Below are positions 27,270 to 64,000 of a stretch of DNA of 64,000 nt, in pieces. The first letter of the stretch is position 1; each line of letters starts with the position of its first letter. Under the pieces are notes generated by a model. That model worked only from the letters and a program-made list of their open reading frames with translations. It was not told where the DNA came from and did not search any database. The stretch spans positions 1-64,000 of the forward strand of contig CAISJV010000044.1 in the NCBI GenBank assembly GCA_903885795.1, read 5' to 3'. The DNA is from an uncultured delta proteobacterium. GTDB lineage: Bacteria; Desulfobacterota; Syntrophia; Syntrophales; UBA8958. Position numbers and translations under genes: made by a program.

Positions 27270-30200
27270 TCACTTCTTGATCACATTGACCATGAAGGCC
27301 TTGCTCTCAGGAATCATGGTATTGGCGTCGCCAATAGTTGACGTCAGCAGATTGGCTGCATCACCGTAGGTAAAGACCTCGGCCTTCTTGTCGCCCGGGC
27401 TGTATTTCCGGTCCTTTGTCGTGATCCAGCCGAAGTGCCAGGGAATGCCCACTTCGTGAATAGTGTTGCCGTCGATATTAAAGGGTTTGAACCGGTGGGT
27501 CACAATGGCCGTACATTCGACCTGACCCCGCGGTGACTTTACGATGGTCTTGTCGCCGTTCCGGATACCCTTTTCCCTAGCCAGTTCAACGCTCATTTCT
27601 ACAAACATCCCCGGCTGCATTTCCGCCAGCCACGGACACCAGCGTGTCAGAACGCCCGTCTGCCAATGCTCACTGACCCGGTAGGTCGAACAGACGAAGG
27701 GGAAACGGGGATCGCAACTGCCCACGCCGGAATAAACATCCAGATCGGATCCAACACCGGCTTTATCGAAGCGTTTGATCGCCGGGTTGTTCTTCTGGGG
27801 CGACATCATGTTTTTCTCCACGGGACACTCCAGTGGTTCATAGTGCTCCGGGAAAGGACCGTCGGCAAGACCGGGTCCGAAGAGACTGGCCACGCCATCC
27901 GGCTTCATGATGAAAGGCGGCCTTCCCGAACCGGGATCGCCGACACCGTCCGGCACATCGCCAACCCATTTAGTACCATCCCAGGTAATGACCGCCCGCT
28001 TGGGATCCCATGGTTTTCCGTTGAGATCCACCGACGCGCCATTATAAATAATCCGGCGGTTCACCGGCCACGACCATGCCCACTCGGGATACAGGCCGAT
28101 GCCGGTAGGATCACCTTTCCCTCGCCGTGCGGCCATGTTCACCGCACCGTAGGAGCCGCAATAGACCCAGCAGCCCGATGACGTCGAACCGTCATCCTGA
28201 AGCCAGGCAAAGGCGGGCACTGGTTCGCCCTTCTTAAATTCCTTGAACTCCCCTTTCTTGTTGGGGACCTCAACCTTTTTATCTTCCAGGAAGAAACCGT
28301 TGATTTCTTTGGCTACCGCATGGGGGTCATAATGAAAATGCCCATCGACGGTCTTGCGACCGTAGGGCCAGGTAAGTTTCATGAGGGGATCAGCAAAGGC
28401 GCCGGGCTGTTTTGCATACAGTCCTTTGACCTTAAATAAGATCTCACTCATAATATCTCCGTCGGGAAGAGCCACTCCCGGTGGATTGACGGCCTTGAAG
28501 CGCCACTGCTGCAACCTGCTGCTGTTGGCAATGCTTCCTTCCTTTTCGATGGAAGCGGCGCAGGGAAGCATGAAGACTTCCGTCTTGATCTTCGTGGGAT
28601 CCATACCGGGACCCCGCCAGAAGGAACCTGTTTCATTGTCAAAGAGGTTGACATTGACCATCCAGTCCAGTTTTCCCATCGCTGCCCGGACCTTGTTGGA
28701 ATGGGCGCCGCTACAGGCGGGGTTCATTCCCCAGGCAAAGAAGCCTGAGAACTTGCCCCTGTACATCTGGTCGAAGATTTGGAGCCAGGAGTAGTTGACT
28801 CCGTCGTCGAGTTTGGGCATCAAGGCATAGGCCTCTTCAAGCGAAGCGTTCATGCCGTACATGGAACGGAGGAAACTGGCCGAATACTTGGGAGTGTTTT
28901 TCCACCAGTTGAGGCTGTTCTTTTCCTTGGTGGTGGGGGTACGCTTCTCATTAAAGTCCTTCAGGGTCTTCATGGAAGCAGTGGGGGCGCCTATATAGCC
29001 CGGCCAGATGTGGAACAGCAGCCCATGGTCCGTGGAACCCTGGACATTGCCTTCGCCCCGCATGGCTGCAACGCCGCCGCCGGCAATGCCCATATTACCT
29101 AGGAGAAGCTGAATAATACACATCGTCCGGATGTTCTGGACGCCCACGGTATGCTGGGTCCAGCCCATGGCATAAAGTTCAACGCCGGCCCTGTCGGGCT
29201 TACCGGTGGAGGCATATTCTTTGTAGATCTCCAGTAATTTTTCCTTCGGCGTCCCGGTGATCCTGGTAACGAGCTCCGGAGTGTAGCGGGAATAATGCTT
29301 CTTCAAGAGCTGAAATACGCAGTTTGGGTCCTGGAGGGTCGGGTCTTTGGTGATGACCCCGTCCTTGCCGGTCTGATAGGACCAGGTGTCTTTGTTGTAT
29401 TTGCTGCCTTCCAGTCCGGAGAAGACGCCGTTGTTATCGCCGGGAAGCTTTAACGCCGGATTCACCAGGAAGGAGGCATTCGTGTAGTTCTTTACGTATT
29501 CATCAAAATGCAAATTGTTATCAAGGATATACTTGATCATACCGCCGAGGAAGGCGATATCAGTCCCTGACCGCAGGGGGGCATAAACATGGGATTTGGC
29601 CGCCGACTGGGTGAACCTGGGGTCCACACAGAGCAGTCTTGCCCCTCTTTTGTCTATGGCTTCCTGAATCCACTTGAAGGAAACAGGGTGATTGGATGCG
29701 GGGTTGCTTCCCATTATGAGGATCACATCCGCATTGCGGAAATCGACCCAGTGATTCGTCATTGCGCCACGTCCGAACGACTCTGCCAGAGCCGGTACAG
29801 TTGGGCTGTGTCAGATACGGGCCTGATGTTCAATGTAGACCAGGCCCAACCCCCTTAGAAATTTTTGATACGTGAAGCATTCTTCGAGATCCATGGCCGC
29901 GCTGCCAACGGAAGCAATCCCCTCTGTCCGATTGACAAGCTCGCCCTTCTCATTTGTGGCCTTGAAGCTTACATCGCGGCTTCTCTTGACATTTTCCGCA
30001 ATCTTCTCGAGGGCCCACTCCCAATCTACTTCCTTCCATTCAGTAGCGAACGGCGCTCTGTAGAGAGGCTTGCCCAAGCGGTTCTCGTTGACGGCCATCT
30101 GGTAGATGGAACCGCCCTTACTGCACAGCGATCCCCTGTTGATGGGGCTGTCCGGGTCGCCTTCCGTGTTGACAACCTTGCCTTGCCGGGTGGAGACAAT

Positions 30201-30368
30201 AATGCTGCAGCCGACAGAACAGTAAGGGCAGATCGTCGTGGTCTCTTTTGCATACTTGACCTTCAGGGGCTGAGCGTAGGCGGATACAGGCTTCAGGCTG
30301 ACGCCGAGGCCGGTGGTAGCCAGCACAGCACCGGAGATCTTCAAGAAACCTCTTCTGCTGACATCCAT
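27270..30368 (-). CDS. fdnG: selenocysteine formate dehydrogenase, catalytic subunit
   Basis: One reading frame of 1032 codons interrupted by a TGA at codon 186 that I read as selenocysteine. The start is ATG 30368 (AAAGGAGCG upstream), with a Tat signal SRRGFLKISG. Next is the 4Fe-4S site CPYCSVGC...GSLCSKGG, then HQARI-Sec-HSPTVPALAESFGRGAMTNH, the same arrangement as E. coli FdnG around its Sec. The rest is a molybdopterin (MGD) domain with NVQGSTDHGLLFHIWPGY. It oxidises formate in the periplasm using Mo or W. Downstream are the FeS and cytochrome b subunits; a structured leader lies upstream. Confidence 0.95.
29811..29813 (-). other. fdnG: in-frame UGA, selenocysteine codon
   Basis: The TGA replaces the Mo/W-ligand residue and is followed by codons for HSPTVPALAESFGRG, conserved in Sec-containing FDHs. 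Immediately after it the RNA can form a hairpin with a small loop (CCGGCTCTGG about 18 bases downstream), at the place of the bacterial SECIS. It requires SelA/SelB/SelC encoded elsewhere. Confidence 0.92.
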
Positions 30369-30397
30369 AAAAATGCGCTCCTTTCTTAGGTATTGAT

Positions 30398-30474
30398 TCA
30401 CATGGTTGCGTCCATCGACTCACCCTTTCCGAGCATGGGAGGCGGCGCCGTTTCCAGCAACGCCCAATGTCCAC
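30398..30474 (-). ncRNA. Moco-riboswitch-like leader of the FDH operon
   Basis: On the minus strand GTTGC near 30463 pairs with GCAAC near 30408, extended by ACAT/ATGT. Inside is a 4-bp stem GCTG/CGGC capped by a GAAA tetraloop. A CCTCCC strand then pairs with GGGTGAG, followed by GTCGATGGACGCAACC. A GNRA hairpin, CCTCCC and GGACGCA in this order is how I remember the Moco RNA motif. It ends about 30 bases before the start codon of an enzyme that consumes this cofactor. A covariance-model search is needed to confirm; the tungsten form of the cofactor is possible. Confidence 0.55.
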
Positions 30475-49347: not shown

Positions 49348-51426
49348 TCATATCTTGGAAATCCGGCAGCCGATGTTCTTGATATTCGGCGTCCCGTATT
49401 CCTTGCCCAGCTTCCCGATGGAAGTGAGGATATTGAAGTTGGATTTCTCCCAATCGAACTGCTTCTCCGGATCTCCTTCGGGGAACCACCAACCGATAGA
49501 GGCATTGACGACCTGGGGCGCTACGATATCTGATACGACGGCCTTCTGGACGATGGCGCCGTATTTGGTTTCGATGCGGACATCGTCGCCGTTTTTGATG
49601 CCGAACCGGGCGGCGGTGTCGGGATGAATCTCAATAAAGGGATCAGGTTCCCTTTCCCGCACCTTCTTGACCCAGCGATACGAGGAGATGAGGTAGTTAG
49701 GACTCTTGGAGCTGATGAGAATCAGCGGATAATCGGGATCTTCCGCTTCGGGAAGTCCCTCGTAGGCGGGCATGGCGGGGAGTTTGAATTTCTCCGCCGT
49801 GCTGAGGCGCAGTTCCACCTTGCCCGTCGGCGTCCGGAAACCCTTTTCCTCATAAAGTTTGAAGCGGTCGGGCCCTTTCAAATATCCTTTTTCACAGAAC
49901 TGCTTGTACGTGAGGCCGCTTGGCTGCAGGAGGTCCTCCAGAAACTCCTCATGATCCGCCTTCCAGAGTTCGGGGGGGCTCATGAGCTTGCCCAGCTCGT
50001 TCATGATTTTTATGTCCGGCCAGCACTCGGGAGGGGGTTCGACGATTTTGGGCCGCGCCAGGACCATGCCGTGCCCGATGCCGTAGTGACCGATATCGTT
50101 CATCTCGAACTGGTGCGCCACCGGGAAAACGATGTCGGCCATGGCTGCGGTCGGCGTCATGAACAGGTCGGCAACAGCCATGAAATCGAGCTTTTGAAAG
50201 GCTTCATAGGTCTTGCGACTGTCCGCCCAGGCCACCATGGGATTGGTGCACATGGCGTAGTATCCTTTGACGGGATAGGGGACCTCCTCCAGGATCGCCC
50301 GGCGGAAGAAGGCGGGGGCGATGGTCATCAGGCGGGGAATCACGCCGTAATGGCGGCTGATCATTTCCTTGGCTTTGTCGGGAATGAGATCGGCCCGGAC
50401 AAAGGGTCCCAGACCCATGATCTTGGGATCGTAGGCGTTCACATTGCCGCCCGCCACCTCGAGGTTCCCGCAGATGGCCATGAGGCACAGGAGGCCGCGG
50501 ATGACATGAAAGGCATTCACGTCGTGCTCAATGGGATTGCCCCACTGGATGGCCGCCGGCTTGGCGGCGGCGTATTTGCGTGCCGCCGCGCGAATCTGAT
50601 CCGCCGGGACCCAGGTAATTTCGGCTACCTTTTCCGGCGGATAATCTTTTACCTGCCGGGCGAGATCCTCAAAACCGTAGGTCCATTTTTCGACGAATTC
50701 CTTGTCGTAGAGCCCTTCTTCAATGACAACATTCAGCATGCCCAAAACGAGGGCGTGGGCCGTGCCGGGCCGCAGGCGCAGCCACAACCCGGCCTTTTTA
50801 ACCAGTTCGATATTGCGGGGATCGACGACAATGAGCTCCGTGCCGTTTTTCAACTGCTCATCGAGGTTGCTGCGGATCTGGCCCTCTTCGTTGGTGTCGG
50901 TGATATTGCTGGCAAAGAGCATGACCAGTTTCGTGGGATTATGGAGATCCGCCACGGGGTAGAACCCGCAGGTATGAACCCCGGTGATTTCCCGGGGGGC
51001 ATGACAGATGTCCTGAGAGGCGATGACATTGGGGGAGCCGAAAAGATTGGCCAGACGAATCAAAATGAAATGTTCGAGCCCCTTGGGCATCCCGACGCCG
51101 AAGGCGACACCCCTGGCCCCGTATTTCTCTTTGATCCCGTTGAGGCGGTCCGCAGTTTCCTGCAAGGCTTCCTCCCAGGAAAGGCGCTGCCACTTCCCCG
51201 CCCCTCTTTCCCCTACCCTCTTTAAGGGGTACTGGAGACGATCGGGATGATTAAGCCGTTCGGCGGAAAGCCTGCCCTTGGGGCATGTATAGCCCTTGTT
51301 CAGATAGCCATCCGGATCTCCTTTGATCTTTGTTATCTTACCATCCTCAACTCCGACCAGGAGGGCGCAACCGCCGTGATCCCAACGTGAACAGTGGGTC
51401 TTGAACCATTTAATGTCTTCAGCCAT
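49348..51426 (-). CDS. cytoplasmic molybdopterin oxidoreductase (DMSO reductase family)
   Basis: 692 residues from ATG 51426. There is no Tat signal, so it acts in the cytoplasm. N-terminal 4Fe-4S ligands lie in THCSRWDHGGC and GYTCPKGR. The residue expected to bind Mo/W is Cys in SQDICHAPREITGVH. The MGD-binding regions include FASNITDTNEEGQ, VDPRNIELVKKAG and the C-terminal molydopterin-binding barrel. Related enzymes include acetylene hydratase, thiosulfate/polysulfide reductases and FDH-like proteins. No beta or membrane subunit is adjacent, so substrate and partner are unknown. It converges with the iorB operon. Confidence 0.88.
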   Translation of the reverse strand: MAEDIKWFKTHCSRWDHGGCALLVGVEDGKITKIKGDPDGYLNKGYTCPKGRLSAERLNHPDRLQYPLKRVGERGAGKWQRLSWEEALQETADRLNGIKEKYGARGVAFGVGMPKGLEHFILIRLANLFGSPNVIASQDICHAPREITGVHTCGFYPVADLHNPTKLVMLFASNITDTNEEGQIRSNLDEQLKNGTELIVVDPRNIELVKKAGLWLRLRPGTAHALVLGMLNVVIEEGLYDKEFVEKWTYGFEDLARQVKDYPPEKVAEITWVPADQIRAAARKYAAAKPAAIQWGNPIEHDVNAFHVIRGLLCLMAICGNLEVAGGNVNAYDPKIMGLGPFVRADLIPDKAKEMISRHYGVIPRLMTIAPAFFRRAILEEVPYPVKGYYAMCTNPMVAWADSRKTYEAFQKLDFMAVADLFMTPTAAMADIVFPVAHQFEMNDIGHYGIGHGMVLARPKIVEPPPECWPDIKIMNELGKLMSPPELWKADHEEFLEDLLQPSGLTYKQFCEKGYLKGPDRFKLYEEKGFRTPTGKVELRLSTAEKFKLPAMPAYEGLPEAEDPDYPLILISSKSPNYLISSYRWVKKVREREPDPFIEIHPDTAARFGIKNGDDVRIETKYGAIVQKAVVSDIVAPQVVNASIGWWFPEGDPEKQFDWEKSNFNILTSIGKLGKEYGTPNIKNIGCRISKI

Positions 51427-51715
51427 AACTAAATCCTTTCCCTCGGCAGTTTGCCTGTCACAAATATTCTTCCTACCCCCTCCGCTTATCTTGTCAATTT
51501 TTCCACAGCAAGCGGGGGAAATATGCCTATCAGCGATTGAATTTGTTCTGCATCCCCCTATACCGGATAACATCTCAGAAGTAAATAATGCCTAATTTAA
51601 CATATGCAGAAACCGTCATGCCCAGCAGCAACAACAGCCATCACTGATAGCATTGCTCGTGAGCAGATCTATTTTTTTATGAACTCAGAAGAAAGGTAAG
51701 TTGAGACAAGAAAGA

Positions 51716-52063: not shown

Positions 52064-52789
52064 ATGCGCGTTTACATCGGTTTTGACGACACGGACATTC
52101 TAGATTCGGAATTCGGCACGGGCAAGGTGGCCCGCCGTTATGAAAGGCTGCTCCCCGCAGGCTGCCAGGTCTGGGGGGTTGTCCGCCAGCAGCTTTTGGT
52201 GGATCCCCGTATCCCCTACACCTCCCACAACAGTTCGGCCTGCGTCGTGGTGGAATTGGCCGATCCTTCCCTGGCGCCATGCCTTTTGCCATTGGCGATC
52301 GAGCACCTGGAAAGATCATCCGCCCAGGGCAGCGATCCAGGGCTATGTTTCGTATGTGAAGGAGACCAGTCCCTCGCGGCCTTGATAACCTTCGGCCGGT
52401 TCTGCACGGAAAAGATCATGACTCAGACCGACGCCCGGCAGGCCGCTGGCGGCAGCCATCTTTCCGGTCACGGCGGGACGAATGACGGGATCATCGGCGC
52501 GGCGGCGGCCGTGGGCCTTACCGCCTCGGGATGGAACGGGCGCTTTATCGAGTTTGCCAACCTGCGGGATTTTTCTGATCCGTTGTCCGTCGGGAAGTTG
52601 GCCGATAACGGAATCCGGGCCGTTTCTCTGGATCGGGATGCGATCTGCCCTGCCCCAGATGATCTGGTCACAACGAAAGGATGGCTCCGGCCCCGGTTGT
52701 GGGGGCACGAGGTGGTCCTCCCCGTGATGCCGACGGGGCCGGGCCGGTGGGAAAGCATGGGAGAGAAACGAAAGAAGGACAAACCGTAA
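52064..52789 (+). CDS. TiaS-like nucleotide-binding protein
   Basis: 241 residues from ATG 52064 (AGGAGAAAT upstream). It opens MRVYIGFDDTDILDS, matching the G-I/F-D-D-T-D motif of archaeal tRNA-Ile2 agmatinylcytidine synthetase (TiaS), and has GSHLSGHGGTNDGIIGAAAAVGL, the second conserved block. The C-terminal OB-fold and zinc ribbon of TiaS are missing. Bacteria use TilS for that tRNA, so another role is likely. The next genes encode an unknown small protein and a molybdenum-storage homologue with tight spacing, suggesting a link to molybdate or tungstate handling. Confidence 0.75.
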   Translation: MRVYIGFDDTDILDSEFGTGKVARRYERLLPAGCQVWGVVRQQLLVDPRIPYTSHNSSACVVVELADPSLAPCLLPLAIEHLERSSAQGSDPGLCFVCEGDQSLAALITFGRFCTEKIMTQTDARQAAGGSHLSGHGGTNDGIIGAAAAVGLTASGWNGRFIEFANLRDFSDPLSVGKLADNGIRAVSLDRDAICPAPDDLVTTKGWLRPRLWGHEVVLPVMPTGPGRWESMGEKRKKDKP

Positions 52790-52807
52790 ATTTTAGGAGG
52801 TGTGATC

Positions 52808-53026
52808 ATGGCAGGAAAAATTTTTTATCGGGAACGCCGGAAGGTGGGAGAGAAAGAAAAGAAACCCCGTTTCAAGCTCGTCGCCGTCGCCGATGTGGAT
52901 CTGAAGTTCTACAGTGAGCACCTGCGCAAGAAGGAACTGGAAGAAATCGCCGCCACCGTGGGAGCAGAACTGGTACTCCTTAAAGCCCCCAAGGATAAAG
53001 ACGAAGAAGTCGAAATAAAAGAATAG
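52808..53026 (+). CDS. 72-residue protein of the storage operon, unknown
   Basis: Strong AGGAGGTGTGATC site before ATG 52808. The protein is highly charged: a basic N-terminus (FYRERRKVGEKEKKPRFK), a central strand LVAVADVDLKFYS and a helix HLRKKELEEIAATVGAELVLLK, then an acidic tail. No Cys or His clusters are seen. It lies 18 bases after the TiaS-like gene and 13 before the storage subunit, so it should be co-expressed with them. No family is recognised. Confidence 0.7.
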   Translation: MAGKIFYRERRKVGEKEKKPRFKLVAVADVDLKFYSEHLRKKELEEIAATVGAELVLLKAPKDKDEEVEIKE

Positions 53027-53039
53027 AGAGGCAAAATTT

Positions 53040-53870
53040 ATGGCCCTGTTAAGAGAGCGGGACGGACGCAGATTGCATGTGAAGAGCAAACTGATGGGAG
53101 AGAGCCTGGTCGGAAAGACCTTTCTGGAGGGTCTCACCATTGCGCCGCAGCAGCGGTTGTTTCCCGACGTGAATGTTGTCAAGATCGGGGGGCAATCAAT
53201 CTGTGATCGGGGGGTAAAGGCCTTACCCGCCCTCGTCAAGGAAATCGCCGCTTGTAAAAAGGACCACAAGATGCTGCTGACAACAGGCGGCGGCACCCGG
53301 AGCCGCCATATCTACTCCATCGGTCTGGAACTGGGCATGCCCACCGGCATCATCGCCAAGTTCGGAAGTTCCGTCTCCGAACAGAACGCCCTGCTGGTCT
53401 CCACCCTGTTATCCTCCTTTGGGGGCATCAAGATCGGCCACGATGAGGTAATCAAACTATCTACCTACTTCGCGCAGGATTGCCTCCCCGTCATGCACGG
53501 CATGCCCCCCTACGATTATTTCGCCCTCCCCACCTCCAAATCGCGTCTTCCCGTCCACCGGACCGATGTGGGAACCCTGATTCTGGCCAATCTTATCGGC
53601 GCCAAGAGCTGTATCCTTATCAAAGATGAACAGGGGTTATATACGGACGATCCAAAGAAAAATGCCAAGGCGACCTTCATTCCCGAGATCAGCGTTGCGG
53701 ACCTTCTGGCGAAGGACCTTGACGACCTGATCATCGAGCGCCCCTGTCTGGAGATCCTACAGAACAGCGAAGTAATCGACCGGATCCAGATCATCAACGG
53801 TCTGGAGGCGGGGAACCTAACCAAGGCCCTGCGGGGCGAACATGTTGGGACGATCATCTATAGAAAATGA
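53040..53870 (+). CDS. molybdenum storage protein-like subunit
   Basis: 276 residues, amino-acid-kinase fold, matching the MoSto beta/alpha subunits of Azotobacter as I remember them: VNVVKIGGQSICDRG (ATP site), MLLTTGGGTRSRHIYSIGLELGMPTG, KFGSSVSEQNALLVSTLL, GMPPYDYFALPTSKSRLPVHRTDVGT and a C-terminal VIDRIQIINGLEAGNLTKALRGEHVGTII. MoSto stores over a hundred Mo or W atoms as polyoxometalate clusters, loading driven by ATP. Uridylate kinase is the main alternative, but the GEHVGTII end is storage-protein-like. Only one subunit gene is seen, so a homo-oligomer is implied. Confidence 0.8.
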   Translation: MALLRERDGRRLHVKSKLMGESLVGKTFLEGLTIAPQQRLFPDVNVVKIGGQSICDRGVKALPALVKEIAACKKDHKMLLTTGGGTRSRHIYSIGLELGMPTGIIAKFGSSVSEQNALLVSTLLSSFGGIKIGHDEVIKLSTYFAQDCLPVMHGMPPYDYFALPTSKSRLPVHRTDVGTLILANLIGAKSCILIKDEQGLYTDDPKKNAKATFIPEISVADLLAKDLDDLIIERPCLEILQNSEVIDRIQIINGLEAGNLTKALRGEHVGTIIYRK

Positions 53871-53893
53871 CACTCCCTTCAGGAAGGAAATAA

Positions 53894-54520
53894 TTATCCT
53901 TCGAAAACATTCCATGAGCAGTTCACCATGGGGGTAAGACCTTTCCCCTGCATGATGACGTCCAGATGGGTGAGGCTGAGGGCCGAAACGTCCAGTTCGT
54001 GATCGTTCAGATCGCTCACCCGGTTGAGGGTGACAAGGTAGCGCTGGCATTTATCACAACTGAAGGCCGCTTCCTGGGTCCTGTTTTCCACATAGAAAAA
54101 GTCCATCCCCTCCTGGGCCTCGTGCTCACAATAAGGACAGATCACCCGGCTGAAGAGCCAGTCATGACCGCACTGGGAACAGTGGAGCCAGCGGCGGGTT
54201 ATCTTCTCCTCGATCAGGGCGATCGTGGGAAAGGCGCCACAGACGGGGCAGTAGCCCTTCTTCCATTCGGCGTCGATCAGCGCTACGGCATCGGGACGCC
54301 GCTTTTCCAGAACCATTCTCGTCAACTGATTAAGAAGGAGGGCGATGCCTTGGGGGCTTGCCGGAAGGTCGGCGGACCAGAGTTTGATGATATCCTCGCC
54401 ATGATCGGGAAAGGTCCTGAAATAATCATATATATCCAGTCCACCTTTGCGTCCGGCTTTTTCAAGACGGTCCATGTCCTCCCGGAGACTGGGGAAACCT
54501 TCCTTTAAGGCGCTGGTCAT
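53894..54520 (-). CDS. fdhE: formate dehydrogenase accessory protein FdhE
   Basis: About 208 residues from ATG 54520; the frame is open further up. Four Cys pairs in FdhE order: GYCPVCGAFPTIALI, HCSQCGHDWLFSRVICPYCEHE and FSCDKCQRYLVTL, forming two rubredoxin-like metal sites. FdhE is needed for active formate dehydrogenase. It is shorter at the N-terminus than the E. coli protein. It is divergent from modA, linking FDH maturation to molybdate uptake. Confidence 0.88.
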   Translation of the reverse strand: MTSALKEGFPSLREDMDRLEKAGRKGGLDIYDYFRTFPDHGEDIIKLWSADLPASPQGIALLLNQLTRMVLEKRRPDAVALIDAEWKKGYCPVCGAFPTIALIEEKITRRWLHCSQCGHDWLFSRVICPYCEHEAQEGMDFFYVENRTQEAAFSCDKCQRYLVTLNRVSDLNDHELDVSALSLTHLDVIMQGKGLTPMVNCSWNVFEG

Positions 54521-54592
54521 TACGGATTTATTTTGTTTCCCCTCTATATGATGGAAAAGAATCGTGGCAAGCGACGTATGACATATGGGGGG

Positions 54593-54641
54593 TTGACTTT
54601 CTCGCCGTTTTTTTGTATTAAGCCAAAAGTAACATATGTTA
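54593..54641 (+). promoter_or_regulatory. modA: modA promoter with palindromic operator
   Basis: TTGACT (54593-54598) and TATTAA (54616-54621) are spaced by exactly 17 bases. TAACATATGTTA, a perfect 12-bp palindrome, covers 54630-54641, which is about +2 to +13. That is a classic repressor position, and the ModE-like regulator gene is 2.8 kb downstream. The palindrome does not obviously match the E. coli ModE site. Confidence 0.6.
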
Positions 54642-54657
54642 AACGAGGTATAAGTCA

Positions 54658-55398
54658 TTGATATGCAATCTTTGCACAGTTGTACTTGTTTTTTTTCTTT
54701 TCATCTCTCCTGTTTCCGCCCAGGATAAACTTCATGTTGCCGTGGCGGCGAATTTTATTTCCACCTTCCAGGAATTGACCCAGTTGTTTGAAAAACAAAC
54801 GGGGATATCCCTAGAGGCAACCTATGCCTCCACCGGTCAACTCTACACCCAGATTGTGAACGGCGCCCCCTACGACCTCTTTCTTTCCGCCGACCGGGAA
54901 AAACCGGACCTCCTCCATCAGGGGGGACGGGCGGACGTTCCTTTTGTCTATGCCTCGGGACAGGCGGTCCTCTGGACGAACCGGAAAGATCTGTGTACTC
55001 TCAAGAACTGGCGGGAGGTCATGGCCTTTCCCGGTCTGAAGAAAATAGCCGTCGCCAACCCGAAAACCGCCCCCTACGGCGCGGCGGCAATGGAGGCACT
55101 TAATAAAACCGGCGTCATAGAGAATGTTCAAGGGAAGCTTGTTTACGCCCAGAATATCGCCCAGGCCTTCCAATATGCCGCCACGGGCAGCGTGGATGCG
55201 GGGTTCTGCGCCTTGTCCGCCACTACATCGGCGGAAGGCCGGAAGGGGTGTTTTTTCTCCGTCGATAATGCCCCACCCATCGTCCAGGGGGCCTGCCTCC
55301 TGAAAAGGACTGCCCATCGTGAAGCGGCGGAAAGGTTTGCCGTTTTTCTGGCTTCGCCGGGGGCGGTCGCGATCAAAAAGAAGTACGGGTACAGGTAA
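54658..55398 (+). CDS. modA: molybdate ABC transporter substrate-binding protein
   Basis: 246 residues, TTG start (no in-frame ATG; GAGG lies 12 bases upstream). Signal peptide of about 22 residues (ending PVSAQ). Mature protein: LHVAVAANFISTFQELTQLFEKQTG, TYASTGQLYTQIVNGAPYDLFLSAD (oxyanion-binding Ser) and KTAPYGAAAMEAL. It binds molybdate or tungstate in the periplasm; the residues do not separate ModA from WtpA/TupA by eye, but the length and neighbours favour ModA. Confidence 0.92.
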   Translation: MICNLCTVVLVFFLFISPVSAQDKLHVAVAANFISTFQELTQLFEKQTGISLEATYASTGQLYTQIVNGAPYDLFLSADREKPDLLHQGGRADVPFVYASGQAVLWTNRKDLCTLKNWREVMAFPGLKKIAVANPKTAPYGAAAMEALNKTGVIENVQGKLVYAQNIAQAFQYAATGSVDAGFCALSATTSAEGRKGCFFSVDNAPPIVQGACLLKRTAHREAAERFAVFLASPGAVAIKKKYGYR

Positions 55399-55401
55399 AA
55401 T

Positions 55402-56058
55402 ATGGACTGGACAGCACTTTTTCTCTCACTGAAACTCGCCTTGGTCGCCACCACGATCCTGATGATCGTCACGGCACCCCTGGCCTGCCTCATGGCTTAC
55501 AGCCGCCTGCCGGGAAAGGCGTTCCTGGAGGCATTCATCAACCTGCCCCTGGCCATGCCACCCACGGTCGTCGGTTTTTATCTGCTAATCATGATGGGTC
55601 CCGAAGGCTGGCTCGGGGGCCTGTGGACGGGGGCGACAGGATCGCCGCTCCTCTTCACCTTTACCGGGATTGTCATCGCTTCTATCATCTACAGCATCCC
55701 CTTTGCCCTGCAACCGATGCGGGCGGCCTTTGAAAAGATCGACCCCCGGTTGATCGAAAGCGCCCGGATTCTCGGCCTTTCTCCGCTGGCAATTTTCACC
55801 CGGGTGATCATCCCCAACAGCCTCAACGGAATCGCCGCTTCGGCCATCCTCGTTTTTCTCCACACCCTGGGGGCCTTCGGCGTCATCCTCATGGTGGGGG
55901 GCAGTGTGCCGGGCCAGACCCGGGTGGCCTCCGTCGCTATTTACGAGGCCGTGGAGACCCTGCAATACGGCAACGCCGCCATGATGTCCCTGGCCCTGTT
56001 GCCGATCTGCTACATCTTTCTCCTCGTTGTCCACCGCCTGACGAGGAGCCCGTCATGA
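55402..56058 (+). CDS. modB: molybdate ABC transporter permease
   Basis: 218 residues with five to six membrane helices and the permease EAA-type loop (RAAFEKIDPRLIESARILGLSPLAIFTRVIIP) contacting ModC. LGAFGVILMVGGSVPGQTRVASVAIYEAVE is highly typical of ModB. It starts 3 bases after modA and overlaps modC by 4. Confidence 0.95.
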   Translation: MDWTALFLSLKLALVATTILMIVTAPLACLMAYSRLPGKAFLEAFINLPLAMPPTVVGFYLLIMMGPEGWLGGLWTGATGSPLLFTFTGIVIASIIYSIPFALQPMRAAFEKIDPRLIESARILGLSPLAIFTRVIIPNSLNGIAASAILVFLHTLGAFGVILMVGGSVPGQTRVASVAIYEAVETLQYGNAAMMSLALLPICYIFLLVVHRLTRSPS

Positions 56059-56774
56059 ATCTCCAGATTCGCATCCGCAAGCCCCTGCCCCATTTCGAGC
56101 TGTCCATCGACGTCAACTGCCCGGCGGAGACAATGACCGTTGTTATCGGTCCCTCCGGCGCCGGCAAGACGACCCTGATGCGCATCATCGCGGGACTGGA
56201 TAAACCTGCCGAGGGGTTTATACAATTCGGCGACGAGGTCTGGCTAGACACCAAGCGGCGGATTTTCCTGCCGCCGCAGAAACGCCGTCTCGGCTATGTC
56301 TTCCAGGATTATCCCCTCTTTCCCCACTTGAGCATCCACGACAATGCCGCCTTTGCCACCGGCGCCAGGAAGAATGTCGTTCAGGAGCTGCTGGAGCGTT
56401 TCGGCATCCGGCACTTGCAGGATCGCAAGCCCGACTCTGTCTCGGGCGGGGAGCGCCAGCGGTGCGCAATCTGCCAGGCTCTGGCCAGGGAACCTCGGCT
56501 GCTCCTCCTCGACGAGCCCTTTTCCGCCCTCGATGTCTTCACCCGCCGGGATCTCCGGGATGAATTGCGCAATCTGAAAGAAGAGCTGCGCATACCCGTG
56601 ATTTATGTGACCCACGACGTCAACGAGGCCCTTTATTTAGCCGATGATCTCTTGCCCATTGTCGAGGGCCGGGTGGACCGGGAATGGATGCAGCGTTCCC
56701 TTATGCGGGTGGACGACGCAAAATCCGAACGAACCAAGGCGGTTCGGGAACCGCGGCTGTCCCTTGCCTATTAA
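56055..56774 (+). CDS. modC: molybdate ABC transporter ATPase
   Basis: 239 residues. Walker A GPSGAGKTTLMRIIAG, signature VSGGERQRCAICQALA, Walker B LLLLDEPFSALD and switch HDVNEA. The C-terminal Mop/TOBE domain found in most ModC proteins (about 350 residues) is missing, so this transporter may lack direct feedback inhibition by bound molybdate, and control may rest on the regulator and storage protein instead. Confidence 0.93.
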   Translation: MNLQIRIRKPLPHFELSIDVNCPAETMTVVIGPSGAGKTTLMRIIAGLDKPAEGFIQFGDEVWLDTKRRIFLPPQKRRLGYVFQDYPLFPHLSIHDNAAFATGARKNVVQELLERFGIRHLQDRKPDSVSGGERQRCAICQALAREPRLLLLDEPFSALDVFTRRDLRDELRNLKEELRIPVIYVTHDVNEALYLADDLLPIVEGRVDREWMQRSLMRVDDAKSERTKAVREPRLSLAY

Positions 56775-56800
56775 AATGAATCAAAGGAGTTGTTTCGTTT

Positions 56801-57367
56801 ATGAAAATTGCTGCTTATTCCTATGACGAGTACGTTCATTTAGTAAAATCATTTCACGGAAGCCTGGCCCCGGGGCTGATCATCGGGGGTTTTATCGTTG
56901 ATCTGGCCCTGAAAAACCTCCCCGAGGGGGAGTTCTTCGACGCCATCTGCGAAACCTCGGTCTGCCTGCCCGACGCCGTCCAATTGCTGACGCCCTGCAC
57001 GATCGGGAACGGCTGGTTGAAGATATTCGACGTCGGCCGTTTTGCCGTGACTTTATATGAAAAAGAAAAGGGAACGGGAATCAGGGTTTATCTCGATTCG
57101 GAAAAACTGAAGCCCTGGCCGGAATTCAACGCCTGGTATTTCAAACTGAAAAAGAAAAAGGAACAGGATTTCGAGCTTCTTATGAATCAGATCAAGGACG
57201 CCGGACCCTCGGTCCTCAGCATGCAGCCGGTTCGCGTAAAACCGGAGCTTACGGTCAAGCGGAGCCTGGGACCCACCGCTCCCTGTCCCGCCTGCGGCGA
57301 GTCCTATCCCTTAAGAGACGGAGCATCCTGCCTGAGCTGCCAGGGCCGCACACCCTATGTGGAATAA
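56801..57367 (+). CDS. FmdE-family protein
   Basis: 188 residues. The FmdE domain pattern is clear: KSFHGSLAPGLIIGGFIVDLAL at the N-terminus, ICETSVCLPDAVQLLTPCTIGNG (Cys region) and DVGRFAVTLYEKE. The C-terminus carries a zinc ribbon CPACGESYPLRDGASCLSC. FmdE is named from molybdenum formylmethanofuran dehydrogenase, but family members occur widely near Mo/W genes without known function. It follows modC by 26 bases with AAAGGAG upstream. Confidence 0.85.
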   Translation: MKIAAYSYDEYVHLVKSFHGSLAPGLIIGGFIVDLALKNLPEGEFFDAICETSVCLPDAVQLLTPCTIGNGWLKIFDVGRFAVTLYEKEKGTGIRVYLDSEKLKPWPEFNAWYFKLKKKKEQDFELLMNQIKDAGPSVLSMQPVRVKPELTVKRSLGPTAPCPACGESYPLRDGASCLSCQGRTPYVE

Positions 57368-57445
57368 AATGATTAAAATCAAAACCCTTGACTATTTGGT
57401 GGCCATTCATTAAATCTTCTTCGAGCGATAAAGAGGAGCCTGGAC

Positions 57446-57802
57446 ATGGAAATCAAGTATAAGATCTGGATCGAAAAAGAGGGGAAGGTCATTTTCGGAC
57501 ATGGCCGGGAAGAACTGTTCCAGGCCATTGACGATTGCCATAGCCTCAACGCGGCAGCAAAAAAGCTCGGCATGTCCTACCGCGCCGCCTGGGGACGCTT
57601 GCGGGCCTCGGAAGATCGCCTGGGCGTCAAACTTGTTGAAAGTGACACCGCAAAAAAAGGCATGACCCTGACCCCGACCGCCAAGGGCCTCCTGGAAAAA
57701 TTCCGGCGCCTGGAGAAGGACGCCGATGCCTACATTCAGAAGACAAGCCGCGAACTTTCCGCCCTCCTGGAGGGCGACGCCAAGCCTGGTGCCGACAATT
57801 AA
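57446..57802 (+). CDS. modE: ModE-like winged-helix regulator (DNA-binding part)
   Basis: 118 residues containing the LysR-type N-terminal winged helix of ModE: FGHGREELFQAIDDCHSLNAAAKKLGMSYRAAWGRLRASEDRLGVKLVE. The C-terminal molybdate-binding Mop domains of E. coli ModE are absent, so it cannot sense molybdate by that route; single-domain ModE proteins exist in other bacteria. It probably controls modABC and neighbours via the palindrome at 54630-54641 (inference). Confidence 0.85.
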   Translation: MEIKYKIWIEKEGKVIFGHGREELFQAIDDCHSLNAAAKKLGMSYRAAWGRLRASEDRLGVKLVESDTAKKGMTLTPTAKGLLEKFRRLEKDADAYIQKTSRELSALLEGDAKPGADN

Positions 57803-57832
57803 ATAATAGATACAAACAAATCAAAAGGTAAA

Positions 57833-58834
57833 ATGGAACTGAAGCCGGAAATACTGGTTCCCCGTTTGGGGGACTACCTGGTGGAGAAAAAACTGATTAC
57901 TGCGGCAAATCTCCGGGAGGCCCTCGCTCACCAGCAAATGGCCTTACAAAGGGAAGGGGTGAAGCTTTTTTTGGGACAGGCCCTTGTTTCCATGGGCGTT
58001 ATCGGCAAAGACAACCTTGACGCTGCTATTACGGAGCAGATTCTGGACTTGCGTCAGGCCTTGGAGGAGACAAACAGAGACCTCGAAAAGACCGTTCTGG
58101 AGCGTACGGCGGAACTTGCTCTAGCTCTCGATAAACTCGCAGAATTGAATAAAATGCAAATCCGGTTTGTATCAAACATATCCCACGAGTTGCGAACCCC
58201 CCTCTTCCATATTTCAGGTAATCTGGAACTGGTGTTGGATGAAGATATGGGACACCTGAACGCTGATCAGCAAGAAACCCTTGCCATCGTGCAACGGGCA
58301 GCCGAGCGGCTGGGCGACCTGATCGAAGACCTGATTCTCTTCACTGCTACCAAGGACAGACCCCTGAAACTGCATATGCAGGTCGTTCCCGTTTGTTCCA
58401 CCTGTGAAGCCGCCATGTCGCATTTACAGGAAATGGGCCGGAAGGCAGGAATCAATCTGAACCTGGATTGCCCCTCATTTAATGTCTCGGTCCTGGCAAA
58501 TCCCGACAGACTGTCATGGGTTATACGCCATCTTGCTGAAAACGCGATAAAATTCACGGATAAAGAAGGATCGGTAACCATCCGAACCTGTGAGGAAGGG
58601 ATTTATATCGTCTTTGCCGTTGATGACACGGGCATCGGCATCCCCCGGGAATGTTTCGAGGAAATCTTTGAACCCTTTCATCAGCTCGATGAGACCATTA
58701 GCCGGCGTTATGGCGGTATGGGGCTGGGACTTACCCTTGCCCGCAAGATCATCCAGGCCCACGGAACAGATATCTCTGTATCTTCAGAGGTCGGCAGGGG
58801 AAGTTCCTTTTCATTCCGTTTGCAAAAGGCATAA
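57833..58834 (+). CDS. orphan histidine kinase
   Basis: 333 residues without membrane segments. The N-terminal 80 residues resemble the small helical domain of type II secretion/pilus ATPases (LGDYLVEKKLITAANLREALAHQ; LGQALVSMGVIGKDNLDAAI). A coiled coil follows (EETNRDLEKTVLERTAELALALDKLAEL). The H-box is FVSNISHELRTPLFHISGN, and the ATPase has the N box (HLAENAIKFTDK), VDDTGIGIP and RRYGGMGLGLTLARKI. No response regulator is adjacent. It follows the ModE-like gene by 30 bases, so molybdate-linked signalling is conceivable. Confidence 0.9.
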   Translation: MELKPEILVPRLGDYLVEKKLITAANLREALAHQQMALQREGVKLFLGQALVSMGVIGKDNLDAAITEQILDLRQALEETNRDLEKTVLERTAELALALDKLAELNKMQIRFVSNISHELRTPLFHISGNLELVLDEDMGHLNADQQETLAIVQRAAERLGDLIEDLILFTATKDRPLKLHMQVVPVCSTCEAAMSHLQEMGRKAGINLNLDCPSFNVSVLANPDRLSWVIRHLAENAIKFTDKEGSVTIRTCEEGIYIVFAVDDTGIGIPRECFEEIFEPFHQLDETISRRYGGMGLGLTLARKIIQAHGTDISVSSEVGRGSSFSFRLQKA

Positions 58835-63468: not shown

Positions 63469-63870
63469 TTATCCCCTGATATCGATCAGTTCCTTTGACT
63501 CCTCCAGACGCTTGCCGACCAGATCCACCAGAGACTCGTCAAATCCAAGATGCCGGCCGAGAATAAGGGTCAAACCGGGATATTTTTTTGCTTCCGTCCG
63601 CATCATATCCGGCACGTCTTTGAGAAGATGGATCCCCAAGTGAAGAAAATAGGGCATGACGATGACCTTATCTGCCCCTTCCCTAACACATTTCTCAAGT
63701 ATTTCCGGGAAGTGCGGACCAAGTTCAGACATGTAACAGGTTTCGATCATCGCCCAGGGACGCTTTTCCTTCAACCGTTGAGCAACTTTTTCCATACCCT
63801 CCCCTGCCCCGGGAACCCGGCTTCCATGTCCCATAAGAATGATCGCTTCTTTACTATAATTATCTTTCAT
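63469..63870 (-). CDS. small CbiX-type sirohydrochlorin chelatase
   Basis: 133 residues from ATG 63870. Single-domain chelatase: IILMGHGSRVPGAGEGM with the metal-binding His, FPEILEKCVREGADKVIVMPYFLHLGIHLLKDVP with the second His pair, and a C-terminal GFDESLVDLV. CbiX-S/CfbA proteins insert Co (cobalamin) or Ni (F430) into sirohydrochlorin. Cobalt is more likely in a bacterium. It ends 30 bases after the hydrolase start, on the same strand. To the right (63871-64000) nothing further is supported. Confidence 0.88.
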   Translation of the reverse strand: MKDNYSKEAIILMGHGSRVPGAGEGMEKVAQRLKEKRPWAMIETCYMSELGPHFPEILEKCVREGADKVIVMPYFLHLGIHLLKDVPDMMRTEAKKYPGLTLILGRHLGFDESLVDLVGKRLEESKELIDIRG

Positions 63871-64000
63871 CCGTAAAAATACCCCTAAGTATTTGATTTC
63901 CTCAATCCAATCAGAAGTTATTCTCTTTCCGGGGAACTTGTTGTGCAGCCAGGGAGCACAAGGCGTGGATAACGCTAACCGCCAAGGTGCTTCCACCCCG

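Follow-up and report, generated by a model that had tools for sequence, protein, structure and literature searches.

Between positions 52064 and 53870 of the 64,000-nucleotide stretch of DNA analyzed here (contig CAISJV010000044.1 of an uncultured delta proteobacterium of the Syntrophales; hereafter, the window) lie three adjacent genes, the products of which we call TiaSL, P74, and MosL. Our best reading of this locus is a coherent, conserved module that comprises a single-subunit variant of the molybdenum (Mo) storage protein MoSto and two uncharacterized partners.

52064..52789, + strand: TiaSL, a stand-alone TiaS-type kinase-like domain protein of 241 amino acids (aa) that matches TiaS and has no Pfam family
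52808..53026, + strand: P74, a 72-aa protein of no known family, studied through a 60-sequence alignment and adjoining MosL in 48 of 48 loci
53040..53870, + strand: MosL, a molybdenum-storage-protein-like subunit of 276 aa (AA_kinase, 2e-23), studied through phmmer searches against PDB sequences, a tree, and a comparison of metal ligands

The triplet is tightly packed, with P74 filling the space between the end of TiaSL at 52789 and the start of MosL at 53040. The ATG of P74 at 52808 is preceded by an AGGAGG box, and this 72-residue version is preferred over the 74-aa version with a GTG start in the mechanical list of open reading frames (ORFs), which is unsupported by relatives. An earlier reading of the window from its letters alone (the sequence-only reading) had named these genes and their neighbors, and ORF, Pfam, and NCBIfam checks returned all of them at the same positions and as the same kinds. 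We consider the locus to be more than a chance arrangement because the cluster recurs widely and P74 is under purifying selection.

Sequence comparison firmly identifies MosL as a homolog of MoSto. Its best PDB matches in phmmer are MosB (2ogx_B; 5.5e-69, over residues 16-273) and MosA (1.7e-49), and the best uridine monophosphate (UMP) kinase reaches 1.4e-7. The genome has a single MosL match and a separate PyrH at C17 (336 bits, over the family cut-off of 243.9), a model against which MosL scores ~35 bits. We therefore rejected the UMP kinase reading of MosL, MosA and MosB being far closer and the genuine PyrH lying elsewhere; the preference of the sequence-only reading for a storage-like subunit over a uridylate kinase agrees with the grouping of MosL with MosA and MosB. 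A 60-row tree was used only for its unrooted grouping, the PyrH outgroup being one very long branch that makes the root unreliable (L093 is also on a long branch). In it, the two-subunit genes (from Azotobacter, Azospirillum, and the tandem pairs in G011, G056, and G085) group together (10 sequences; 100/96), a second group (100/100) unites the 16 genes that are convergent to P74, and the window MosL falls among the remaining single-gene sequences. An alignment of 55 MosL sequences has 28 invariant residues.

Conservation of the triplet had been proposed as a check by the sequence-only reading, and it is borne out by a TiaSL scan of genome contigs, in which 84 relatives were confirmed and 80 were kept (L027-L106). 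The TiaSL-P74-MosL set recurs in 48 of these 80 loci; 28 have neither MosL nor P74 (TiaSL-only loci), and four that are cut by a contig end (L028, L054, L105, and L106) were left unclassed. Gene order was counted on L027-L106 only, since several loci of the phylum sample described below (L001-L026) match genome-contig loci. In none of the 48 loci does the distance between P74 and MosL exceed 176 bp. The three genes share one direction in 35 loci (including L084, where TiaSL is 4.4 kb away, and L093, which has the order TiaSL-MosL-P74); in 12, MosL is convergent to a codirectional TiaSL and P74; and TiaSL is opposed in L103. The set recurs in many families and also in Actinomycetota and Acidobacteriota records.

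Co-occurrence was evaluated in a phylum sample of 297 genomes (thresholds: MosL, E ≤ 1e-20; P74, 0.001; TiaSL, 1e-10), which yielded MosL in 23, P74 in 21, and TiaSL in 24. P74 and MosL occur together in 19 genomes (some of them the same as those of the genome-contig loci) and are <260 bp apart in every one. P74 is found without MosL in G167 and G273, and MosL is found without P74 in G011, G056, and G085, as tandem pairs, and in G285, as a fragment. TiaSL is present in 20 of the 21 P74 genomes and occurs without P74 in four others (G184, G231, G262, and G282). Fisher p values are 4e-24 and, for P74-TiaSL, 4e-26, with relatedness ignored. In each of seven mixed families (f1, f2, f35, f37, f52, f57, and f92), a within-family pair can be drawn in which TiaSL tracks P74; in f52, two more genomes have TiaSL only. 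TiaSL is on a different contig from P74 in 7 of the 20 genomes: in four (G030, G071, G097, and G224), at least 7.5 kb separate it from the nearest end of its own contig, and it is thus truly apart from P74; in three (G160, G253, and G296), a contig end is close by, so linkage to P74 may be hidden (the contig end in G253 carries a MosL fragment). The two genes are ~12 kb apart in G209. We also searched 25 genomes with TiaSL-only loci (L086 and the contig-end-cut L089 and L090 were left out), with L093, L103, and L106 alongside as known positives, which showed P74 and MosL side by side. P74 was recovered elsewhere in 5 of the 25 and MosL in 7; all five P74 genes adjoin MosL, and of the two genomes with MosL but no P74, G306 carries the gene as a tandem pair, and G307 carries it truncated by a contig end. 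P74 had no match on Azospirillum plasmids (10 records with two MosL-type places each; the search did not extend to the chromosomes or to Azotobacter). As a rule, on the sets searched, P74 accompanies single-copy MosL and not two-subunit MoSto.

P74 has eight invariant residues in 60 sequences (I5, F6, R8, R10, P20, R21, H38, and E43), and dN/dS (the nonsynonymous-to-synonymous rate ratio) is 0.034-0.044 for the three relatives, of five compared, with unsaturated dS, indicating purifying selection. It has no Pfam or NCBIfam family; the best PDB match of its profile is a thermosome helix (E = 0.08); and fold searches with Foldseek and VIA-align gave no row above Z 3.9 for a model of moderate confidence, which is not proof of a new fold. 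Residues 1-25 of the window protein include 10 K/R versus 3 D/E, and we would guess from this composition that P74 binds a polyanion. The best single item linking P74 to Mo and tungsten (W) comes from G167, in which a distant homolog (hhalign probability, 98%; search E = 2.6e-11) lies directly 5' of a moaA-moaC-MOSC-mog operon (L176:1720-4568) encoding MoaA (392 bits), MoaC, a MOSC protein, and a MogA/MoaB-type protein. G167 lacks MosL (1e-20) and TiaSL at the thresholds used. Because this homolog heads such an operon, P74 is tied to Mo/W metabolism independently.

The AlphaFold2 model of TiaSL (predicted local distance difference test [pLDDT] score, 93) matches TiaS (4rvz) with Z 20.3 over 145 aligned residues (root mean square deviation, 2.0); TiaS structures give Z 16-20, and the next row gives 7.4. 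Foldseek (9.8e-10) and a profile search against the PDB (3e-7) recovered TiaS as well. A DDTD motif (residues 8-11, each at least 90% conserved) and a GIIGAAAAVG stretch also align with TiaS, and 29 residues are invariant in 72 TiaSL sequences. Against the family models, TiaSL stays below the cut-off both for TiaS (17.6 bits; cut-off, 600) and for methanogenesis marker 11 (15.8 bits; cut-off, 255.8). Rows for the pterin kinase HPPK (Z 6-7) are within the common-fold range and were not used, and a Pyrococcus furiosus structure (3u02) was dropped as an orthologue since its title is TiaS.

The remaining features of the locus, together with two oxidoreductase genes outside it, are as follows.

53894..54658, - strand: FdhE-like formate dehydrogenase (FDH) accessory protein (Pfam FdhE_central over cut-off; NCBIfam FdhE, 2.7e-13, below cut-off)
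54658..55398, + strand: ModA, molybdate-binding protein (TIGR01256, 176 bits, over cut-off; Pfam SBP_bac_11)
55402..56058, + strand: ModB permease (TIGR02141, 207 bits, over cut-off; Pfam BPD_transp_1)
56055..56774, + strand: ModC ATPase without a TOBE/Mop domain (ABC_tran; TIGR02142 below cut-off, positions 1-221 of 353)
56801..57367, + strand: FmdE-family protein with a treble-clef zinc finger (PF02663, 6e-38; PF23475, 4e-14)
57446..57802, + strand: single-domain ModE-type helix-turn-helix (HTH) regulator, 118 aa (HTH_1, 4e-13; TIGR00637 below cut-off)
57833..58834, + strand: histidine kinase (HisKA and HATPase_c), tentatively placed with the module
49348..51573, - strand: molybdopterin oxidoreductase upstream of the triplet (Fdh-alpha and PhsA-type models, both below cut-off)
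27270..30401, - strand: selenocysteine FDH-N alpha subunit with an in-frame TGA (U197), a possible client enzyme (TIGR01553, 1326 bits with TGA read as a residue)

TGA is also the stop codon of the FDH-N alpha gene, which is followed by genes for an Fe-S and a cytochrome b subunit. A CbiX-type chelatase gene is found at the end of the window (63469-63996, - strand).

The Mo/W setting that the sequence-only reading saw here recurs in part of the other loci. Within the stretches covered, a W/Mo importer gene (TupA, ModA, or TupB/ModB) is present in 24 of the 48 MosL+P74 loci versus 1 of the 28 TiaSL-only loci, and any sought Mo/W gene is present in 29 of 48 versus 2 of 28. The two-subunit MosL genes of L178 (G011) and L180 (G085), and not those of L179, lie beside TupB or TupC homologs; these two genomes thus have two-subunit MoSto genes beside Tup importer genes and no nifH match at 1e-80. 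A DUF4213/DUF364 gene for putative heavy-metal chelation occurs near Mo/W importer or MosL loci in L031, L039, L048, and L056, as well as near the Tup cluster of the window's own genome (L163:10369-11202). A selenocysteine FDH gene with an in-frame TGA adjoins the triplet in L027, L031, and L039 and adjoins TiaSL-P74 at a contig end in L028. AFOR_C, a tungsten-enzyme family, is present in 21 of 21 P74 genomes and 209 of 276 others (230 of 297 in total) and discriminates little. A triplet serving as a system for FDH, as the sequence-only reading had it, is only suggestive. That reading had also noted that the usual molybdate sensors are missing. This stands for the locus, where neither ModC nor ModE has a TOBE domain, and fails for the genome: at C32, a TupA-TupA-TupB-TupC cluster accompanied by an HTH-PBP regulator includes an ATPase with the genome's one PF03459 (TOBE) match. 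Because of this TOBE-bearing importer ATPase, a storage protein replacing missing sensors is not a required inference. NifH over cut-off is encoded in 1 of 21 P74 genomes (G296) versus 68 of 276 others, and nifH has no match at 1e-80 in the window's own genome or in G011, G056, and G085; a nitrogenase feeder role in this genome was therefore rejected.

We give a probability of about 0.5 to the triplet being an ATP-using molybdate/tungstate buffering module. It is supported by homology, gene order and conservation, co-occurrence, the near absence of nifH over cut-off, and the Mo/W gene link; metal binding, ATP binding, and the MosL oligomer are all predictions. MosL most likely forms a MoSto-like homo-oligomeric cage in which the oxyanion would be held as a polyoxometalate. 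P74, with its basic N-terminal part, would be its dedicated partner, standing in for the second, dissimilar subunit of two-subunit MoSto and helping to build, stabilize, or release the oxyanion cluster. TiaSL, a kinase-type and presumably ATP-dependent protein, may aid loading or release or may act on a ligand carrying the metal into the cell. The metal would be supplied by ModABC here and by Tup-type importers elsewhere and would be consumed by selenocysteine FDH and other Mo/W enzymes.

Several observations weigh against a buffering module. The first concerns the metal ligands; the covalent Mo ligands of MoSto are Glu129 and His156, according to a published account (PMC4504029). A check on the MosA sequence assigned both residues to the alpha subunit. 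The columns of MosA E129, H140 (which we take to be the three-fold histidine), and H156 hold G133, Y143, and D159 in MosL (G in 28, Y in 32, and D in 32 of its group of 32, respectively); MosB likewise lacks the three MosA residues. Conserved MosL residues, namely H134 (aligned with MosA H130; H in 30 of 32 in its own group and in 15 of the 17 sequences that make up the other single-gene set), H153 (aligned with MosA S150; H in 31 of 32), and D159, are candidate ligands only, not proven ones. Homology thus does not settle how MosL would hold metal, and storage is what we infer. Second, the partners are separable: G273 has TiaSL and P74 beside TonB/ECF (energy-coupling factor) genes and no MosL at 1e-20, because of which P74 cannot be solely a MosL subunit, and 20 of the 25 genomes with TiaSL-only loci lack P74 and 18 lack MosL, so TiaSL needs neither. 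Third, 19 of the 48 MosL+P74 loci lack any sought Mo/W gene, many of them having short flanks, and in TiaSL-only loci, transporter genes predominate over Mo/W genes. Further, the P74 model (two strands, a short strand, a helix, and a strand) is of moderate confidence (pLDDT 72) with no clear fold match, and three P74 genomes (G185, G209, and G274) have NifH-like matches below cut-off. We put the odds of storage against delivery or ligand-modifying roles at about even.

Delivery is the alternative that survives best, although we consider it unlikely: MosL, P74, and TiaSL would form an ATP-driven W/Mo selector that feeds cofactor insertion and has little bulk capacity. It would account for the P74 homolog adjoining moaA-moaC-MOSC-mog, for a MosL without the covalent cluster ligands of MosA, and for the FmdE, FdhE-like, and oxidoreductase genes close by here and in some other loci; however, the P74-moa case is one among the 21 P74 genomes of 297 (moa loci were inspected in G167 only), and MosL resembles MoSto over its whole length.

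Transporter genes of several kinds mark the 28 TiaSL-only loci: TonB receptors (14 loci), ECF S components (12), ECF T components (11), and exporter-type ATP-binding cassette (ABC) genes (7). The TonB receptor tested fits a B12-receptor model best, with siderophore receptors a near tie, and the T component fits CbiQ best, all below cut-off; a corrinoid or other chelate is a possible ligand of these transporters. A TonB receptor, two ABC ATPase stretches, a CbiQ-like T component, an S component, and TiaSL recur together in L164, L165, L172, L173, L175, and L177; TiaSL is flanked by a TonB-receptor-type gene on one side and an exporter-fold ABC gene on the other in L095, L098, L099, and L100 (families were checked in L098 only); and L097 and L101 have TiaSL with an ABC gene. 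On a haloarchaeal plasmid, a TiaSL match under which no gene is listed lies beside a BtuC/FecCD-type importer (L204:5773-9660). The role of TiaSL is thus not confined to Mo/W, as without P74 and MosL it stands mostly by TonB, ECF, and other transporter genes. The broadest role compatible with the data has TiaSL working for importers of scarce ligands, which are probably chelated, and one branch of it acting with P74 and MosL for W/Mo. A rather speculative further proposal is that TiaSL would be the ATP-dependent enzyme of an unrecognized route for scarce W/Mo, in which TonB and ECF systems import chelated metal, TiaSL acts on it, and P74 and a one-subunit MosL cage store it and hand it to cofactor synthesis. 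Such a route is favored by G030 and G097, P74/MosL genomes in which TiaSL is in TonB-ECF clusters away from P74 and MosL; by G273, with a TonB receptor, TiaSL, PadR, P74, and ECF genes side by side; and by L084, where a TonB receptor, ECF genes, and TiaSL are followed by TupA-TupA-TupB-TupC-P74-MosL. Another proposal, which we find more doubtful still, makes MosL and TiaSL successive small-molecule kinases that modify an organic ligand brought into the cell, either a metal chelator or a cofactor, the Mo/W link being indirect. The TonB, ECF S, and exporter-type genes counted above, the haloarchaeal importer, and the amino-acid-kinase fold of MosL agree with it, but Tup/Mod importers are frequent by P74/MosL, and MosL groups with MoSto, not with metabolite kinases.

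It is very improbable that TiaSL is a tRNA-modifying enzyme merely sharing the operon, as its shared fold with TiaS might suggest: tRNA-Ile2 is already provided for by TilS, which has an over-cut-off match in the genome, and for this reason the modification was rejected as the role of TiaSL; the alignment covers mainly the first ~155 residues of a protein of 241 aa against 420 in 4rvz; and TiaSL co-occurs with P74 even when the genes are apart. Many gene neighborhoods are accidental, but a UMP kinase-like paralog and hypothetical genes standing by chance beside a mod operon can be practically dismissed: the set recurs across many families as well as in records from Actinomycetota and Acidobacteriota, and P74 is associated with TiaSL (Fisher p = 3.6e-26 in 297 genomes, uncorrected for relatedness), which already contradicts a chance arrangement.

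To our knowledge, MoSto is the only known ATP-loaded polyoxometalate store. It has been studied as a nitrogenase feeder in Azotobacter. One account describes it as binding >100 Mo atoms, being loaded with ATP, also taking W, and being able to donate Mo for nitrogenase cofactor synthesis, and calls it a protein without known homologs (PMC6448029). A 2025 paper reports TOBE-type tungstate storage and notes that some N2 fixers have a cage-like Mo store (PMC11980592). Titles and abstract beginnings on MoSto and on TiaS/marker 11 in one open-license PMC library yielded no description of a single-gene MoSto or of a stand-alone bacterial TiaS domain. If the buffering module is real, a one-gene MoSto branch with a 72-aa partner in syntrophs and sulfate reducers, mostly without nifH, would bring metal-cluster storage into anaerobic Mo/W enzymology (that of FDH and aldehyde oxidoreductases); P74 would gain its first function, and a TiaS-type domain its first function other than tRNA modification. 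Because MosL lacks the known metal ligands, its storage mode can be tested directly.

In comparison with known systems, MosL shares the amino-acid-kinase superfamily with the UMP kinase PyrH but falls below the PyrH family cut-off in a genome with its own, separate PyrH. TiaSL shares with TiaS, the archaeal tRNA(Ile2) agmatinylcytidine synthetase, the kinase-like domain fold and the DDTD and GIIGA-type stretches, whereas it is much shorter, and TiaS beyond its first ~155 residues is barely matched. The proposed role of the triplet resembles that of the Tub/Mop tungstate/molybdate storage proteins, which have a TOBE domain (PMC11980592); neither the triplet nor ModC has one. The closest likeness is to MoSto of Azotobacter vinelandii (MosA/MosB), from which MosL retains KIGGQS, GGGTRSRH, and KDEQGLYTDDPK-type stretches aligned with MosB. 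Unlike MoSto, MosL lacks MosA E129, H140, and H156, is paired with P74 and TiaSL, and occurs mostly in genomes without nifH over cut-off; and where MoSto has two different subunits, alpha and beta, there is here one gene, which makes MosL a variant of MoSto rather than a strict member.

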